Positions 4,054-40,032 of a stretch of 64,000 nt of DNA are shown piece after piece. Origin of the DNA: Halomarina oriensis. GTDB lineage: Archaea; Halobacteriota; Halobacteria; Halobacteriales; Haloarculaceae. Location: assembly GCF_009791395.1 (NCBI RefSeq), contig NZ_WSZK01000014.1:1-64000 (forward strand), read 5' to 3'. How positions within the stretch are numbered: position 1 is the first letter of the stretch; each line of letters opens with the position of its first letter. A model generated the notes under the pieces. The model worked only from the letters and a program-made list of their open reading frames with translations, was not told the DNA's origin and did no database searches. A program made the position numbers and the translations under genes.

Positions 4054-4446
4054 ATGGAACCGGTCTCGCTGGGTGTTCCCCAGCCAATCGTCGACTCGCT
4101 CCCCGAGGACGGACAGGGCACCGCTCAGGACATGCAACGGGCGGTGCAGGGCCTCGAAGCCCGCATCAACCGCGAAATCGAGGAGTCCGAGGACGCCGAG
4201 GTGGTGGCGTTCGTCACGGACGTCGTTGAGCACCTCGAATCCCGCGCGGAGCGCTACGACGAGTTCGTCCCCGAACTGCGGGCGTGGGGCCAATCGCCCA
4301 TCTACGCCATCGCGTGGCGGAACCTCCAGGCGGACCTCATCGGCCAACTGTTCTCCCACGAGGAGTTGAGCCAGCGCATCGACCGCGAGCGCAACTACCG
4401 CATCGCCGAGGACGGCATCAGACTGAGCGACATGTTCAAGGACTGA
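4054..4446 (+). CDS. Conserved haloarchaeal protein of unknown function
   Basis: 130 aa, acidic, mostly helical, no membrane segment or signal peptide. A coiled-coil-prone stretch (AVQGLEARINREIEES) precedes a second helical region ending RLSDMFKD. Codon use is typical, and a T-rich box (ACCTTTTCACC, 4020-4030) sits about 29 nt before the ATG, which supports this start and a leaderless message. It is a stand-alone gene between the broken membrane protein and the AOR-like cassette. I do not recognise a characterised homologue. Confidence 0.75.
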   Translation: MEPVSLGVPQPIVDSLPEDGQGTAQDMQRAVQGLEARINREIEESEDAEVVAFVTDVVEHLESRAERYDEFVPELRAWGQSPIYAIAWRNLQADLIGQLFSHEELSQRIDRERNYRIAEDGIRLSDMFKD

Positions 4447-4538
4447 ACGCGGGCGGCGACCCGCTGTCGGACGGGCCGAAGGCACGAGTCGACCCGCCGG
4501 CCCTACGCTTAACCGCCCGACGTGCGTAGTGTCCCCCA

Positions 4539-6323
4539 GTGACTGGACGACAGCGCGACGCCGTCCTCCGGGTCGACCTCACCGCGGGGACGGTCGAGCG
4601 CACCCCGGTCCCCGAGCGGTGGCGACGGCGCTACCTCGGGGGGAAGGGTCTCGGGGCACGCTACCTCTACGACGAACTCGACGCCGGCACGGACCCGCTC
4701 GGCCCCGACAACCTCCTCGGACTGGTCTGGGGGCCGCTGTCGGGCTACCTGCCCGGCGAGTCCCGTCTCGCCGTCGTCACGAAGTCGCCGCTGACCGGCG
4801 GGTTCCTCGACTCGTACGTCGGCGGGGCGGTTCCGGACGCGCTCGCCGGTGCCCTCCCGGACTGTCTGGGCGTGTTCGTCACCGGCCGGGCGAGCGACCC
4901 GACGACGCTCGTCGTCGAGGCCGACGGGAGCGCCCACCTCGACCGGGCCGACTGCTGGGGGGCGACGACCGACGAGACCGACGCCGCCTACGACGGCGCG
5001 GTAGCGTGTATCGGCCCTGCCGGCGAGCACCGGGTTCGCTACGCGACGGTGGCGACCGACGGCGGCGACCACCACGCGGGCCGGGGCGGTGTCGGGGCCG
5101 TCTTCGGCGCGAAACGGCTGAAGGCCGTCGTCGCGCGTGGCGACCCGCCGACGCTCCCCGACCCGCTCGTCGACCTCCAGAAGACGGCCGAGCGACGGTA
5201 CGACGAGAGCGACGTCGGCCGGTGGCAGGCCGTCAGCGGGACGCTCGAGAGCGTCGACTTCGCCGACGCGGCGGGCGTCCTCGCCACCCGTGGCTGGCGG
5301 GAGTCGCGCTTCGAGGGGAGCGAGGGTATCGGCGTCGCGGCGGCCCGCGACGCGGCGACCGAGCGTGAGGGCGACGAGACGGGCGGGTTCCGTGTCGAGA
5401 CGAGCGACGGCGACGCCGTTCCGCGCGGGGCCGCCTCGATGAGTCTCGGTGCCGGCCTCGGCATCGACGACTTCGACGCCGTCGCCACGCTCGGCGCGAC
5501 CTGCGACCGACTCGGTATCGACGTCATCGACGCCGGAAGCGCCGTCGCGTGGGCCGTCCGCGCCGGGGAGTCGGGACTGCTCGACCGCTCGCTCTCCTTC
5601 GGCGACCCGGCGGCGGCCCGCGAACTGGTCGTGGCCATCGCCCACCGCGAGGGGACGCTGGCGGACACGCTGGCCGACGGCCTCGACGCGGCGGCCGCCC
5701 GTTACGGCGGCGCGGCCCTCGTCCCCTCGGTCAAGTCGATGGCGCTGCCCGCGTACGACCCGCGCTCCGCGCCCGCGATGGCGCTGGCGTACGCGACGAG
5801 CGACCGGGGGGCGTGTCACCGACGTGCCCGCCCCATCGAGACCGAGGCGTTCGACGGCGAGCGCTGGACCGACCGCGAGCGCGTCGAGCGAGTCGTCGGT
5901 GCCCAGACCGCGCGGTCGGCCCTGTGGAGTCTCGTCGCGGACGACTTCGTCGGCGCGACGCTCGAGGACCTCGGCGCACCGTGGCTCCGGGCGCTCGGGG
6001 GCGACCACGACGCCCGGACGCTGACGACGCTCGGCGAACGCGTCTGGACGCTCACCCGTCTGTTCAACGTCCGCGAGGGGTTCGACCGCCGAGACGACGC
6101 GCTCCCCGGTGCGCTCACCCGAACGCCCGCGGACGGCGACCGGGCGCTCTCCGGTACGGACTTCGAGCGCCTGCTGTCGACGTACTACGCCGTCCGTGGC
6201 TGGGGGCCGGAGGGGCGGCCGACCGCGGCGACGCTGGAGCGGCTCGACCTCACGGGAGTCGCGGACGCCTCGACGCCGCTCGACGACCACGCCGTCACGC
6301 TGGAGCGACCGGCCGACGACTGA
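4539..6323 (+). CDS. Aldehyde ferredoxin oxidoreductase homologue lacking the iron-sulfur cysteines
   Basis: 594 aa, GTG start. It aligns along the whole AOR family: N-terminal pterin-binding domain with GGKGLGARYLYDEL, GPLSG, TKSPLTGG and GRGGVGAVFGAKRLKAV, then the helical domains with LGIDDFDAV, YATSDRGACH and a YYAVRGWGPEG end. The segment that should carry C-x2-C-x3-C (about residues 262-285, FEGSEGIG to FRVETSDG) has no cysteine, and the fourth ligand position (ALWSLVADDF, 461-470) also lacks one. The only cysteines are isolated (109, 139, 157, 322, 426). The pterin site therefore seems kept while the [4Fe-4S] cluster is lost. Next come samp3 and two small genes on the same strand. The substrate is unknown. 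Confidence 0.85.
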   Translation: MTGRQRDAVLRVDLTAGTVERTPVPERWRRRYLGGKGLGARYLYDELDAGTDPLGPDNLLGLVWGPLSGYLPGESRLAVVTKSPLTGGFLDSYVGGAVPDALAGALPDCLGVFVTGRASDPTTLVVEADGSAHLDRADCWGATTDETDAAYDGAVACIGPAGEHRVRYATVATDGGDHHAGRGGVGAVFGAKRLKAVVARGDPPTLPDPLVDLQKTAERRYDESDVGRWQAVSGTLESVDFADAAGVLATRGWRESRFEGSEGIGVAAARDAATEREGDETGGFRVETSDGDAVPRGAASMSLGAGLGIDDFDAVATLGATCDRLGIDVIDAGSAVAWAVRAGESGLLDRSLSFGDPAAARELVVAIAHREGTLADTLADGLDAAAARYGGAALVPSVKSMALPAYDPRSAPAMALAYATSDRGACHRRARPIETEAFDGERWTDRERVERVVGAQTARSALWSLVADDFVGATLEDLGAPWLRALGGDHDARTLTTLGERVWTLTRLFNVREGFDRRDDALPGALTRTPADGDRALSGTDFERLLSTYYAVRGWGPEGRPTAATLERLDLTGVADASTPLDDHAVTLERPADD

Positions 6324-6428
6324 CGGGCCGTGTTCGCCTCCACACGCTCGACGGCGAGCGACACCGCCGTCGGTGCACGGAGCGTGTCGAGGTCGGAGGT
6401 GCGTGCTCCGACGCGCCGGCGAACGGGA

Positions 6429-6434
6429 TTTATG
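6429..6434 (+). promoter_or_regulatory. TATA-like box of the samp3 operon
   Basis: TTTATG, 26 nt upstream of the samp3 ATG at 6458, inside a 134-bp gap after the AOR-like gene. Spacing fits a leaderless transcript, so samp3 and the two genes after it may have their own promoter. Confidence 0.5.
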
Positions 6435-6457
6435 CGTTTCGGCGTCCTGCGACAGGT

Positions 6458-6739
6458 ATGGAACTCCAGTTGCGGTTCTTTGCGAACTTTCGTGAGGCCG
6501 TCGGGCAGAAGACCGTCGCCCGGCAGTACGACCAGGGGACGACCGTCGGAGAGGTGCTGGCCGCCCTCGAAGCCGAGTTCGACGGCCTCGAAGGGGAGTT
6601 GCTGGACGACGCGGGCGACATCCGCCCGCAACTGAGCGTGCTGAAGAACGGCCGCGAAGTGCTCCACATCGACGGCACCGCGACGGACCTCGACGAGGGC
6701 GACACCGTCTCCGTCTTCCCGCCGGTGGCGGGTGGATAG
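6458..6739 (+). CDS. samp3: SAMP3-like ubiquitin-like small archaeal modifier / MoaD-family protein
   Basis: 93 aa beta-grasp protein: RFFANFREAVGQK at the start, TVGEVLAALEAEF in the helix, LSVLKNGREV in the middle, and the diagnostic FPPVAGG C-terminus. The terminal Gly-Gly is what an E1-like enzyme (UbaA) adenylates in archaea, either for protein conjugation or for sulfur transfer in molybdopterin and tRNA thiolation. The sequence, notably the RFF-FRE-VGQK start and the KNGREV-H-DG core, resembles Haloferax SAMP3 more than SAMP1 as I remember them. It directly follows a pterin-binding AOR homologue and abuts the next gene (TAG then ATG with no gap), which favours a molybdenum/tungsten cofactor link. 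Confidence 0.82.
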   Translation: MELQLRFFANFREAVGQKTVARQYDQGTTVGEVLAALEAEFDGLEGELLDDAGDIRPQLSVLKNGREVLHIDGTATDLDEGDTVSVFPPVAGG

Positions 6740-7015
6740 ATGCGCGTCGAGAAGTCCTTCCGCGGTATCTCGAAACGACTCGCCACACACTACCTCGGGA
6801 ACCTCGGCGGCGAGCGTATCGAGGGTGACCCCGAAGGCGAGGGGCCGGTCACCGTCGAGGGGAGCGACTGGACGGCGACGCTCACCGCCGAGAAGGTGGA
6901 CGTCGCCGCCTCGATTCGGCTGACGGAGGTCACCGTCGTCTTCGAGGGCGAGGAGGAGACGCTGCCGGAACTGGTCGACGACTTCTCGCAGAAGGCGATG
7001 CGCGCGGGGGGATGA
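6740..7015 (+). CDS. Small protein resembling the C-terminal domain of MoaD-related proteins
   Basis: 91 aa. ATG follows the samp3 stop with no spacer. The sequence starts VEKSFRGISKRLATHYL, has a Gly-rich NLGGERIEGD turn, a strand RLTEVTVVFEG, and ends QKAMRAGG. This pattern resembles the domain fused behind MoaD in some bacterial and archaeal proteins (MoaD_arch/DUF1952 type), and here it is a separate gene directly after a MoaD-like gene. It too ends in Gly-Gly. I rely on memory of the family, so a domain search is needed to confirm. Translational coupling with both neighbours is likely. Confidence 0.7.
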   Translation: MRVEKSFRGISKRLATHYLGNLGGERIEGDPEGEGPVTVEGSDWTATLTAEKVDVAASIRLTEVTVVFEGEEETLPELVDDFSQKAMRAGG

Positions 7016-7377
7016 ACGGCGACCCCATCGACGGCCCCGCCCTGTTGCTCGCGGCCGCGAAGGCGAGCGTCGGGCCACAGCTCCTCCCGGACCTGGTCGA
7101 CCACGTGCAGGCCCACCTCGGGCCGCGACTCGACGAGTACCGTCGGCGCTACGAACTGGTCCACGAGAGCGACGACGCCTGTCTCTTCCTCGTCGAGGCC
7201 GACCATTGGGAGACCATCGACGAGCACGTCGAACTCGAACGCCGCGAGCGTGACGCGGTCGAACGGGCCCACGAGGAACACCTCCGTCGACTGGGGGACA
7301 GTCTCGGCCGGAGCGAGGAGTTCGAGACCGCCCTGGAGATTCGGACCTGCGTCGTCGTCGGGAAGAACGTCGAGTGA
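7012..7377 (+). CDS. Unknown protein, last gene of the AOR-like/samp3 cassette
   Basis: 121 aa. Its ATG overlaps the preceding stop by four bases (ATGA), so it is translationally coupled. No membrane segment or known motif. The N-terminal third is helical and hydrophobic (ALLLAAAKASVGPQLLPDLV), the centre is rich in charged residues (ELERRERDAVERAHEEH), and the end is a short strand (ETALEIRTCVVVG). I do not recognise the family. Its position suggests a job linked to the SAMP3/MoaD-like protein or to maturation of the AOR homologue. Confidence 0.75.
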   Translation: MNGDPIDGPALLLAAAKASVGPQLLPDLVDHVQAHLGPRLDEYRRRYELVHESDDACLFLVEADHWETIDEHVELERRERDAVERAHEEHLRRLGDSLGRSEEFETALEIRTCVVVGKNVE

Positions 7378-9414: not shown

Positions 9415-10455
9415 TCACTCACCGGCGACCAGTTCCTCGTACTGTGCGCCGGTCTGTTTCAGCGTCGCCGTCGAGTAGAGACGTTCGTGCTCGAACGGCA
9501 GGTACTCGGCCGCCAGTTCGTCTATCTTCTCGTCGACGGCCCCCTGTTCGCGGCCGTGAATCATGGTGAACAGGTTGTACTCCCAGTCCTGGTCGGGGCG
9601 GCGCGGGCGGTGATAGCAGAGCGTGACGTACGGGAGACTGCCGACCCGTTCGCCGCGGGCGTCGAGTTCGTCGTCGGGGACGTTCCAGACGACCATGCAG
9701 TTGGCGTCGAAGCCGGTGACGACGTGGTTGACGACACAGCCGATGCGTTTGATACAGCCGTTCTCGCGGAGTCGCTCGATGGCGTCGACCACCTCGTCGG
9801 TGGTGGCGTCGACGGCCGCGGCGACGTCGGCGTAGGGCGTGAGGGTGAGCGGGAGGCCGTCCTGCACCTCCAGCAGGAGGCGTCGGTCGAGGTCGGTCAG
9901 GTCCGCCGTCGCGGACTCGGAGATACGGGTCGCCGTCACCTCGGTCTCGGTGAGGGACTCCCGTGCGAACCGGTCGGCGTTGACCACCGGGAACTCCAGG
10001 TCGATGTAGTAGTCGGTGAGCATCGGGAGGTTCAACACGTCGAGACCGGTCCGTTCCTCGATGTCCGCGAGGATGGCGTCGCGGGTCTCGCGGGCGGCGG
10101 CGGTGACGACGAACCACATGTTCCACTCGTGGTCGCGCCGGTAGTTGTGGTTCACCTGCCGGTAGCCGTTGATGACCTCGGCGACCGCCTCGAAGCGGTC
10201 GTCGGGGGCGCTGACGGCCGCGAGCGTCGAACTGCCGATGACGGGCGGGTTGAGCACCGCGCCGAACCGCCGGAACACTCCCGCCTCCCGGAGTCGCTGG
10301 ACCCGTTCGAGCGCCGCTTCCTCGGTGACACCGAGGTCCGCACCGACCGCCCGGAACGGGTGCGGTTCGACCGGGAACCCGCTCTGGTAGCCGTCGACGA
10401 GCGTGGCGTCGACCTCGTCGAGGGCAGCACGCCAGTCACCACGGGGAGCCTTCAT
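9415..10455 (-). CDS. ahbAB: Siroheme decarboxylase, AhbA-AhbB fusion
   Basis: 346 aa. Two tandem Lrp/AsnC-like modules. The first (residues 1-165) has a winged helix and the HNYRRDHEWNMWFVV signature; the second (about 180-346) has a winged helix (DRRLLLEVQDGLPL) and CYHRPRRPDQDWEYNLFTMIHG near its end. These HNYxR and YHRP motifs mark the NirD/L/G/H and AhbA/B family, which decarboxylates siroheme to didecarboxysiroheme in the archaeal heme (and d1 heme) pathway. AhbA and AhbB are separate proteins in many organisms but are joined here. It looks like a regulator by fold, yet the active-site motifs point to the enzyme. No other heme gene is adjacent. Confidence 0.85.
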   Translation of the reverse strand: MKAPRGDWRAALDEVDATLVDGYQSGFPVEPHPFRAVGADLGVTEEAALERVQRLREAGVFRRFGAVLNPPVIGSSTLAAVSAPDDRFEAVAEVINGYRQVNHNYRRDHEWNMWFVVTAAARETRDAILADIEERTGLDVLNLPMLTDYYIDLEFPVVNADRFARESLTETEVTATRISESATADLTDLDRRLLLEVQDGLPLTLTPYADVAAAVDATTDEVVDAIERLRENGCIKRIGCVVNHVVTGFDANCMVVWNVPDDELDARGERVGSLPYVTLCYHRPRRPDQDWEYNLFTMIHGREQGAVDEKIDELAAEYLPFEHERLYSTATLKQTGAQYEELVAGE

Positions 10456-38094: not shown

Positions 38095-40032
38095 CTAGTC
38101 GTCGCTCGGAGCGGCCGTCGAGTCGCCCGAGGAGACGCCGGTGCCGGGACCGACGTCGATACCGAGTTCGTCGAGTTTCTCGTCCGGGACGACGCCGTCG
38201 ACCCAGCCACGGTGCTCGTAGTACTCGGCTTTCATCTCGTCGAGTTCGGCGAGCTGCCCTTCACTCGCGCCCTGCCCCGGAACGGCCTCCTCGTGGCCCT
38301 TCACGAAGCGGTTCGGGAGCGAGTCGTCGCTGCCGTCGAAGCCCGCGAGGTTGTTGTAGTAGCGTTCGAGCGTCCAGACGCGCTCGCCGGCCTGCATCAG
38401 TTCGTCCTCGGTCACGTCGAGGCCGGTCATGCCGTTGTACTGCATGACGTACTCCTCGATGCCCTCCGCGAACGCGTTGAACTTGCAGATGTCGAACGAG
38501 TCCGAGATGGCGTGGAGGTCCTGGAACGCGGCGGCGAGTGCGCCCTTGCCCTCCCACTCGTAGGGGTCGGACTTCTCGGGGATACCGAGGATCTCGGCGG
38601 CCGGCGTGTAGGCACGCAGGTGACACGCCCCACGGTTCGAGGTGGCGTAGGCGATGGCCATGCCCTTCATACAACGCGGGTCGTACGCCGCGATGGTCTG
38701 GCCCTTGACGGCCAGCGAGTTCGACTGTGCGTCGAACTCCTCGACGAGGTGGTTGGAGCCACCGCCGAGGTGGGTCGCCAGTTCGCCGTCCGCGTGGGCG
38801 ATCCCCTCGACGAGGTCGATCATGTGCTCGACGTCGCCCCAGTCGATCTGGTCGTCGAGGTCGTCGAGTTTGCCCTCCTCGGACATCTCCATCGCCATGG
38901 CGATCATGTTGCCCGTCTCGATGGTGTCCATGCCGTAGTTGTTACACTGGTCGATCATCACGGCGATGGCGTCCCGGTCGTCGTGCCCCGAGTTCGGGCC
39001 GAGCGCGTACGCCGACTCGTACTCGTAGGACTCCATCCGGACGTTCATGTCCTCGCCCTTGTGCGAGTGGGTGACCTCGACCTCCTTCTTGCAGGCGACC
39101 GGACAGGAGTGACAGGTCGGTTCGTCGACGAGGATGTTCTCGCGGACGTTCTCCCCCGAGACGCGTTCGGCGTCGATGTCGACGCCCTCGGACTCCGAGT
39201 ACGCCGTGGTCGAGGTGTACTTCCCGTTCTTCGTGGGAAGCCCGTCCATCTCGTTGGTCGGGTTCATGAGGACGTTCGTCCCGTAGAGCGAGAGGCCGCC
39301 CTCGTTGGGCGCGGTGACATCGGACTCGCGGATGACCTGCATCGCCTGCTGGTGGCCCTCCTTGAACGTGTCCGGGTTCTTCGGCTTGGGCATCTTCGTC
39401 GTCGACTTGATGAGGATGGCCTTCAGGTTCTTCTGGCCCATCACACAGCCGGTTCCTCCGCGGCCGGACGCCCGGTCGTCCTCGTTGACGATGCAGGCGT
39501 ACTTCACGCCGTTCTCGCCGCCGGGGCCGATAGCCATCAGCGAGAGGTTCTTGCCGTACGACCCCTCGTGGCGCTCTTCGAGTTCGTCACGAACCTCGTG
39601 GACGGTCTTCCCCCAGAGGTCCGAGGCGTCGTGCAGTTCGAGGTTCCCGTCCTCCACGACGGCGTAGACGGGGTCCTCGCTCTTCCCGTCGAACAGCAGA
39701 CCGTCGAAGCCGGCCCACTTGAGGCGCGCACCGGACCAGCCGCCGTGGTGGGAGTCGGTGACCGTGCCGGTGAGCGGGGACTTCGTACAGACCGCGATGC
39801 GACCGCTCATCACCGTCTGGGTCCCCGTGAGCGGCCCGTTCATGAACGTCAGCAGGTTCTCGGGACTCTCCGGGTCCACGTCGGGTCCCTGGTCGAAGAC
39901 GTACTTCACGCCGAGGCCACGCGCCCCGATGTACTTCTTCGCGTCCTCGTCGTCGATGCTCTCGTAGTTGACGTCCCCCGAACCGAGGTCGACACGGGCG
40001 ACGTTGTCCTGAAATCCGCCTAGTTCAGTCAT
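38095..40032 (-). CDS. aor: Aldehyde ferredoxin oxidoreductase (tungsten enzyme)
   Basis: 645 aa, complete. Pterin-binding domain: YIGARGLGVKYVFD, NGPLTGT, TKSPLTGTVTD, ASGRGGTGCVMGQKNLKAI. The [4Fe-4S] ligands are C307, C310 and C314 (CHSCPVAC) and C516 (DICKFNAF). ESYEYE and SNRGACHLRAY supply the Glu and His around the tungsten site. It oxidises aldehydes to acids with ferredoxin as acceptor, in the cytoplasm. The acidic Ser/Asp tail is a haloarchaeal addition. Contrast with the cysteine-less homologue at 4539. Confidence 0.95.
   Translation of the reverse strand: MTELGGFQDNVARVDLGSGDVNYESIDDEDAKKYIGARGLGVKYVFDQGPDVDPESPENLLTFMNGPLTGTQTVMSGRIAVCTKSPLTGTVTDSHHGGWSGARLKWAGFDGLLFDGKSEDPVYAVVEDGNLELHDASDLWGKTVHEVRDELEERHEGSYGKNLSLMAIGPGGENGVKYACIVNEDDRASGRGGTGCVMGQKNLKAILIKSTTKMPKPKNPDTFKEGHQQAMQVIRESDVTAPNEGGLSLYGTNVLMNPTNEMDGLPTKNGKYTSTTAYSESEGVDIDAERVSGENVRENILVDEPTCHSCPVACKKEVEVTHSHKGEDMNVRMESYEYESAYALGPNSGHDDRDAIAVMIDQCNNYGMDTIETGNMIAMAMEMSEEGKLDDLDDQIDWGDVEHMIDLVEGIAHADGELATHLGGGSNHLVEEFDAQSNSLAVKGQTIAAYDPRCMKGMAIAYATSNRGACHLRAYTPAAEILGIPEKSDPYEWEGKGALAAAFQDLHAISDSFDICKFNAFAEGIEEYVMQYNGMTGLDVTEDELMQAGERVWTLERYYNNLAGFDGSDDSLPNRFVKGHEEAVPGQGASEGQLAELDEMKAEYYEHRGWVDGVVPDEKLDELGIDVGPGTGVSSGDSTAAPSDD

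Follow-up and report, generated by a model that had tools for sequence, protein, structure and literature searches.

The window analysed here, the first 64,000 nucleotides of contig NZ_WSZK01000014.1 of the haloarchaeon Halomarina oriensis, carries at 4539..6323 on the forward strand a gene with a GTG start codon for a 594-amino acid protein, here termed AOR', which is a homologue of the aldehyde oxidoreductases (AORs). Three small genes follow it on the same strand, and an earlier note on this DNA had read all four as one possible new cofactor or modifier system. In a profile scan AOR' matches both AOR domains over their full length (AFOR_N, PF02730, 199 bits; AFOR_C, PF01314, 277 bits), and no other Pfam domain, that of FdhD (PF02634) included, was matched. 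Aligned with Pyrococcus furiosus AOR (1aor) the protein has no cysteine at positions 288, 291, 295 and 494, with its R296-G297-A298 standing in for E311-Y312-E313 and its D468 for C494 (the latter positions in 1aor numbering). The [4Fe-4S] ligands C-x2-C-x3-C and a fourth cysteine belong to the definition of the Class I tungsten oxidoreductases (WORs) (PMC13328260); judged by its sequence AOR' is homologous to the AORs and fails two of their defining features, and we do not call it an AOR enzyme. A TATA-like promoter element read by eye, tacgcttaacc (4504..4514, forward strand), lies about 29 bp upstream of the start codon and would fit leaderless transcription.

An AlphaFold2 model of AOR', built for the protein only, has a pLDDT of 94.7, and in Foldseek comparisons it aligns over its whole length with PfFOR (1b25) and PfAOR (1aor) at TM scores of 0.92 and 0.90 respectively. 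The same genome encodes a third AOR on contig C48 and a second, canonical one in the window itself (38095..40032, reverse strand), which lies outside the AOR' unit and is an orthologue of WOR83 (best PDB match 9q1t, Haloferax volcanii WOR83, 1152 bits) with an intact CHSCPVAC motif and the fourth cysteine. Hence, the loss of cysteines in AOR' is not an organism-wide property.

Origin of the AOR' family and its residue changes

The search for cysteine-less homologues in haloarchaea proposed in the earlier note gave a strong match to the window protein in 147 of 292 Halobacteria genomes; 16 further genomes with intermediate scores, representing partial matches or a related cluster-bearing type, were left out. 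We read 60 loci from many genera and 80 named ones. Cluster-bearing AORs of 41-43% identity were encountered at one of the 60 (L081) and at two of the named set (L172, L174), and all non-haloarchaeal matches kept the cluster motif. The remaining 114 sequences constitute the AOR' family, with some species represented in both sets and all AOR' matches of the named set being haloarchaeal; the earlier note would have been refuted had most genomes carried near relatives that keep the cysteines, and this is not the case. In a phylogenetic tree the 30 sampled AOR' sequences form one clade (support 100/100) whose sister group is formed by the cluster-bearing proteins of L081, L172 and L174 (support 100/100), so that on this tree AOR' arose a single time, from an AOR with a normal [4Fe-4S] cluster. 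The two groups have Y93, H182, H183 and other family residues in common; the sister proteins differ in keeping the four cysteines and E313, and in having no formate dehydrogenase (Fdh), MobA or YqeC genes in the flanks read.

A comparison of the 114 AOR' sequences with 28 cluster-bearing relatives (positions of P. furiosus AOR are used throughout) showed that the C-x2-C-x3-C motif (C288/C291/C295) is missing in 114/114, while all four cysteines are kept in 28/28 relatives; the loss is hence no sequencing slip. C494 is an aspartate in 114/114, a count from which one incomplete sequence row was excluded. The triplet E311-Y312-E313 has become R-G-(A/G/S) in every member, as against a glutamate at 313 in 28/28 relatives, a change that the earlier note had not mentioned. 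New arginines replace I449 in all 114 and Y452 in 97. On the other hand T243, D343 and H448 are kept throughout, R76 in 107, Y427 in 109 and D338 in 103, the remainder having asparagine. Of the two copies of the pterin motif D-x2-G-L-(C/D) found in AORs, AOR' keeps the first (D338 or N, and D343) and has W-x4-D for the second. D489 is replaced by tryptophan and N93 by tyrosine in the whole family, but both changes are also present in some cluster-bearing relatives and are thus older than AOR'; with Trp, Phe or Tyr at 489 and Tyr at 93 in such relatives, loss of the second motif was rejected as an AOR'-specific feature. An alternative metal site built from new cysteines was likewise rejected, because the conserved C157, C322 and C426 (window protein numbering) occur in cluster-bearing relatives too. 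The pterin site, which the earlier note described as kept, is retained in part: R76, T243, D338/D343, Y427 and H448 persist, and D489 and C494 are changed.

The alignment thus indicates that loss of the cluster went along with loss of the catalytic acid, and that a good part of the pterin site was retained. Relative to the AOR/WorL proteins (PF02730 plus PF01314; 1aor, 1b25, 9q1t), AOR' is alike in its two-domain sequence, its predicted fold and, largely, R76, T243, D338, D343, Y427 and H448, but lacks the [4Fe-4S] ligands and the E311/Y312/E313 triplet, has Trp for D489 and Asp for C494, and lies in a different gene neighborhood. As the cluster ligands and the catalytic triplet were lost as a set, AOR' should neither oxidise aldehydes nor pass electrons in the manner of AORs. 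Surveys have found the large subunit of AOR/WOR enzymes to be almost invariant in the cluster and tungsten-site residues (PMC13328260, PMC12096430), and AOR' is a broad, conserved exception, in which exactly those near-invariant residues were lost in one event on the tree. Our literature search, which was confined to open-access papers, turned up no account of an AOR family without the cluster.

The joint disappearance of catalytic residues and cluster ligands would suit a decaying relic that has no present function. The dN/dS values of four AOR' pairs are, however, 0.25, 0.43, 0.07 and 0.18, there are 117 near-invariant columns across 60 AOR' sequences, and the reading frames are intact across many genera. 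The gene is under purifying selection and is not decaying; conservation and dN/dS rule out a pseudogene, leaving a functionless relic with a negligible chance of being correct. AOR' is, as the earlier note had read it, a full-length AOR homologue without the cluster cysteines, and it is real and conserved.

Recurrent linkage to formate dehydrogenase and cofactor genes

The genes that recur around 59 AOR' loci code for FdhA (28 loci), YqeC (22), MobA (19), DUF7124 (17), an HdrA-like protein (13), a TorD-like protein (11) and NuoF (9), FdhA being called by TIGR01591 and YqeC by TIGR03172, each over its cut-off. MobA adds a guanine nucleotide to the pterin, and YqeC is a proposed accessory factor for molybdoenzymes with labile selenium. 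Even with DUF7124 uncounted, at least one of these genes is found at 44/59 loci and in 32/44 genera; Fdh and molybdenum cofactor genes are found at 0/19 control loci of similar size from the same genomes. The neighborhoods of 25 cluster-bearing relatives that we read have no such neighbors save for one MobA gene 5.7 kb away. A further 97 neighbors, studied by Pfam and NCBIfam scans, are mostly of scattered functions.

The enzymes encoded nearby are of several builds: a short FdhA (over the TIGR01591 cut-off), an FdhA with NuoF, and an Fdh-like enzyme presumably exported by the twin-arginine translocation (Tat) pathway and accompanied by TorD. The last belongs to loci of the HdrA/TorD type, which encode a 1060-amino acid molybdoenzyme with a predicted N-terminal Tat signal together with iron-sulfur and cytochrome b subunits; as its scores lie below the Fdh cut-offs, 'Fdh-like' is the safe name for it. 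AOR' is thus linked to Fdhs of at least two, probably three, architectures. This variety bears on the possibility that AOR' is a regulatory or structural pseudoenzyme subunit of Fdh complexes that handles no cofactor, which the adjacency of FdhA in 28/59 loci and the retention of the fold despite lost catalytic residues would suit. A dedicated subunit should track a single build, and AOR' also occurs with MobA or YqeC at loci without Fdh. We consider such a subunit improbable, and the variety of the linked Fdhs argues for a shared maturation step instead.

A more serious competitor, though still an unlikely one, is that AOR' is an active molybdenum or tungsten enzyme with an altered, non-redox or directly coupled reaction on one-carbon compounds (formaldehyde or formate), whose new arginine pocket would receive an anionic substrate. 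T243, E313, Y427 and H448 form a conserved second shell in known AORs (PMC12096430); three of these four survive in AOR', the arginines at 311 and 449 are invariant and that at 452 is present in 97/114, the family as a whole is strongly conserved, and a formaldehyde dehydrogenase gene lies near AOR' in 6/59 and 5/56 loci. Yet no member retains the proton acceptor E313 or the E311/Y312 shell that figure in proposed mechanisms of AORs (PMC12096430), formaldehyde dehydrogenase is a rare neighbor, and an association with MobA, YqeC and several Fdh architectures suits maturation better.

At many loci (L036, L040 and others) the DUF7124 gene starts inside the stop codon of AOR'. Its product has a low-complexity N-terminus and a conserved C-terminal domain, and is a candidate partner of AOR'; a protein of about 88 amino acids, membrane-like in appearance, comes after it. 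In H. oriensis itself, another contig brings together genes for YqeC, MobA, a 1134-amino acid FdhA, NuoF, a CobW-type GTPase and a formaldehyde dehydrogenase, without AOR'.

A possible role in formate dehydrogenase maturation

The association extends to whole genomes, in counts that take no account of phylogeny: Fdh-alpha is present in 140/147 genomes with AOR' versus 55/129 without it, YqeC in 147/147 versus 40/129, and none of the 92 YqeC-negative genomes has AOR'. Genomes of the Haloarcula type carry a second YqeC. FdhD (PF02634) was found in 0/292 Halobacteria genomes by a search that was positive in 8/14 controls, three archaea among them, and was accordingly rejected as a partner of AOR'; 208 of these 292 genomes have an Fdh-alpha over the cut-off. 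FdhD of Escherichia coli binds the cofactor and sulfurates it for several Fdhs, and is missing in some Fdh-bearing organisms (PMC10609526). AOR', YqeC and MobA are now linked candidates for supplying haloarchaeal Fdhs, which have no FdhD in these genomes, with their cofactor.

In light of these observations we tentatively favor, as a working proposal short of a probable one, that AOR' is a non-catalytic metallopterin-binding carrier or processing platform in the maturation of haloarchaeal Fdhs. The retained pocket and the partner genes point to the pterin cofactor as its target, and AOR' probably handles the molybdenum- or tungsten-pterin cofactor rather than oxidising aldehydes. It would bind this cofactor or a precursor thereof, hold or modify it, possibly by sulfuration, and then deliver it to the Fdh. 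AOR' possibly takes the place of FdhD in this process: as with FdhD, one factor would serve several types of Fdh, and the genomes with AOR' have no FdhD; AOR' differs in having no PF02634 match, and an FdhD-like role is suggested by gene linkage. The boldest version, in which a stripped tungsten oxidoreductase does the job of FdhD together with YqeC and MobA by delivering, and perhaps sulfurating, the Fdh cofactor, is one we regard as doubtful. If AOR' does carry the cofactor, an enzyme would here have become a chaperone for the cofactor of a different family of enzymes. Of the suggestions in the earlier note, storage or insertion of the cofactor and a redox-silent scaffold remain the best kind of explanation, once the SAMP genes are taken out of them.

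Several points weigh against a role in maturation. Fdh and cofactor genes are absent from the vicinity of AOR' at 15/59 loci, as they are in the window, and the genome counts above are uncorrected for phylogeny. There are 37 genomes with both Fdh and YqeC that lack AOR', and 18 more with Fdh have neither YqeC nor AOR', which implies that AOR' is not needed for every haloarchaeal Fdh; conversely, seven genomes with AOR' have no Fdh over the model cut-off. Deletion of YqeC in Clostridioides difficile gave no clear phenotype (PMC11448449), which leaves the function of YqeC unproven. Finally, the conserved T243, Y427 and H448 could reflect a retained or altered reaction.

Several of the Fdh-bearing genomes without AOR' have a different Fdh subtype. 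An Fdh-alpha of about 757-776 amino acids occurs in part of the AOR'-less genomes L228-L242 (e.g. L228, L229, L233, L236); it shares 55-60% identity with the NAD-type FdhA of H. oriensis, and many of its carriers are also YqeC-negative. In the maturation system of molybdenum hydroxylases with labile selenium YqeC has YqeB as its partner (PMC2276186). AOR' loci have YqeC and partners of the MobA/MocA-like transferase kind in common with that system, but YqeB is present in only 12/145 genomes, and was not found in that of the window, so that most haloarchaeal YqeC proteins stand outside it and a part in selenium hydroxylase maturation is unlikely for YqeC in most of these genomes.

The adjacent SAMP1 operon

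The first of the three genes downstream of AOR' (6458..6739, forward strand) encodes a ubiquitin-like (Ubl) protein of the MoaD-ThiS type that ends in PPVAGG. By sequence it belongs to the SAMP1 modifier family known from H. volcanii, NF041918 being its best NCBIfam model with a score of 107.7 bits (cut-off 60); the label 'SAMP3-like' given to it earlier is replaced by SAMP1. A match to SAMP3 did not appear, no SAMP3 sequence or model having been compared. It is followed on the same strand by the genes for P3 (6740..7015, 91 amino acids, with homologues in 113/145 genomes) and P4 (7012..7377, 121 amino acids, with homologues adjoining P3 in 102/145 genomes), P4 matching no family model in the Pfam and NCBIfam scans. 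P3, described earlier as MoaD-tail-like, does end in Gly-Gly, and its terminal AMRAGG is invariant in 24 homologues read. At four loci (L095, L100, L109, L112) the Ubl and P3 form one protein with P3 behind the Ubl, and several Ubl proteins have one to four residues beyond their own Gly-Gly; both features hint at a processed or two-domain Ubl.

Almost every locus that we read has P3 and P4 next to the Ubl gene, and in many the gene for U4054 comes immediately upstream of it. In the window this 130-amino acid protein is encoded at 4054..4446 on the forward strand, and AOR' separates it from the Ubl gene, which it often directly precedes elsewhere, according to tblastn neighborhoods. A second TATA-like element read by eye, ttatgcg (6430..6436, forward strand), precedes the start codon of SAMP1 by about 27 bp. 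Separate elements before AOR' and the Ubl gene suggest separate transcripts and a promoter of their own for the SAMP1-P3-P4 genes.

That AOR', SAMP1, P3 and P4 form one cofactor or protein-modifier system draws on the gene order of the window and its genus (L034, L035), where the four are adjacent and share a strand, on their proximity elsewhere (U4054 intervenes in L042 and in the named locus L176, and a 2 kb gap in the named locus L121), and on the AOR-MoaD/Ubl neighborhoods known in archaea (PMC2948915; WorX in PMC13328260). SAMP1-P3-P4 also lies near a WOR83-type AOR, 72-80% identical to that of the window, in L095 and L110, so that proximity of SAMP1 to an AOR recurs with a canonical enzyme. 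The neighborhood survey nevertheless led us to reject the unit, which we deem very improbable: SAMP1-P3-P4 adjoins AOR' at just 3/59 loci (L034, L035, L042), P3 and P4 are found in many genomes without AOR', the SAMP1-P3-P4 genes occur in most haloarchaea with no AOR' beside them, and AOR' and SAMP1 are each preceded by a TATA-like element. On this evidence SAMP1-P3-P4 is a separate conserved operon, here a neighbor of AOR' and not its partner, and the presence of ubiquitin-like genes next to AOR' in the window is a local coincidence. Thus, the conserved neighborhood that the earlier note sought in the SAMP genes lies instead with Fdh, MobA and YqeC.

Further along the window (9415-10455, reverse strand), a 346-amino acid open reading frame scores over the cut-offs for both AhbA and AhbB, the siroheme decarboxylase proteins, and represents a fused AhbAB.

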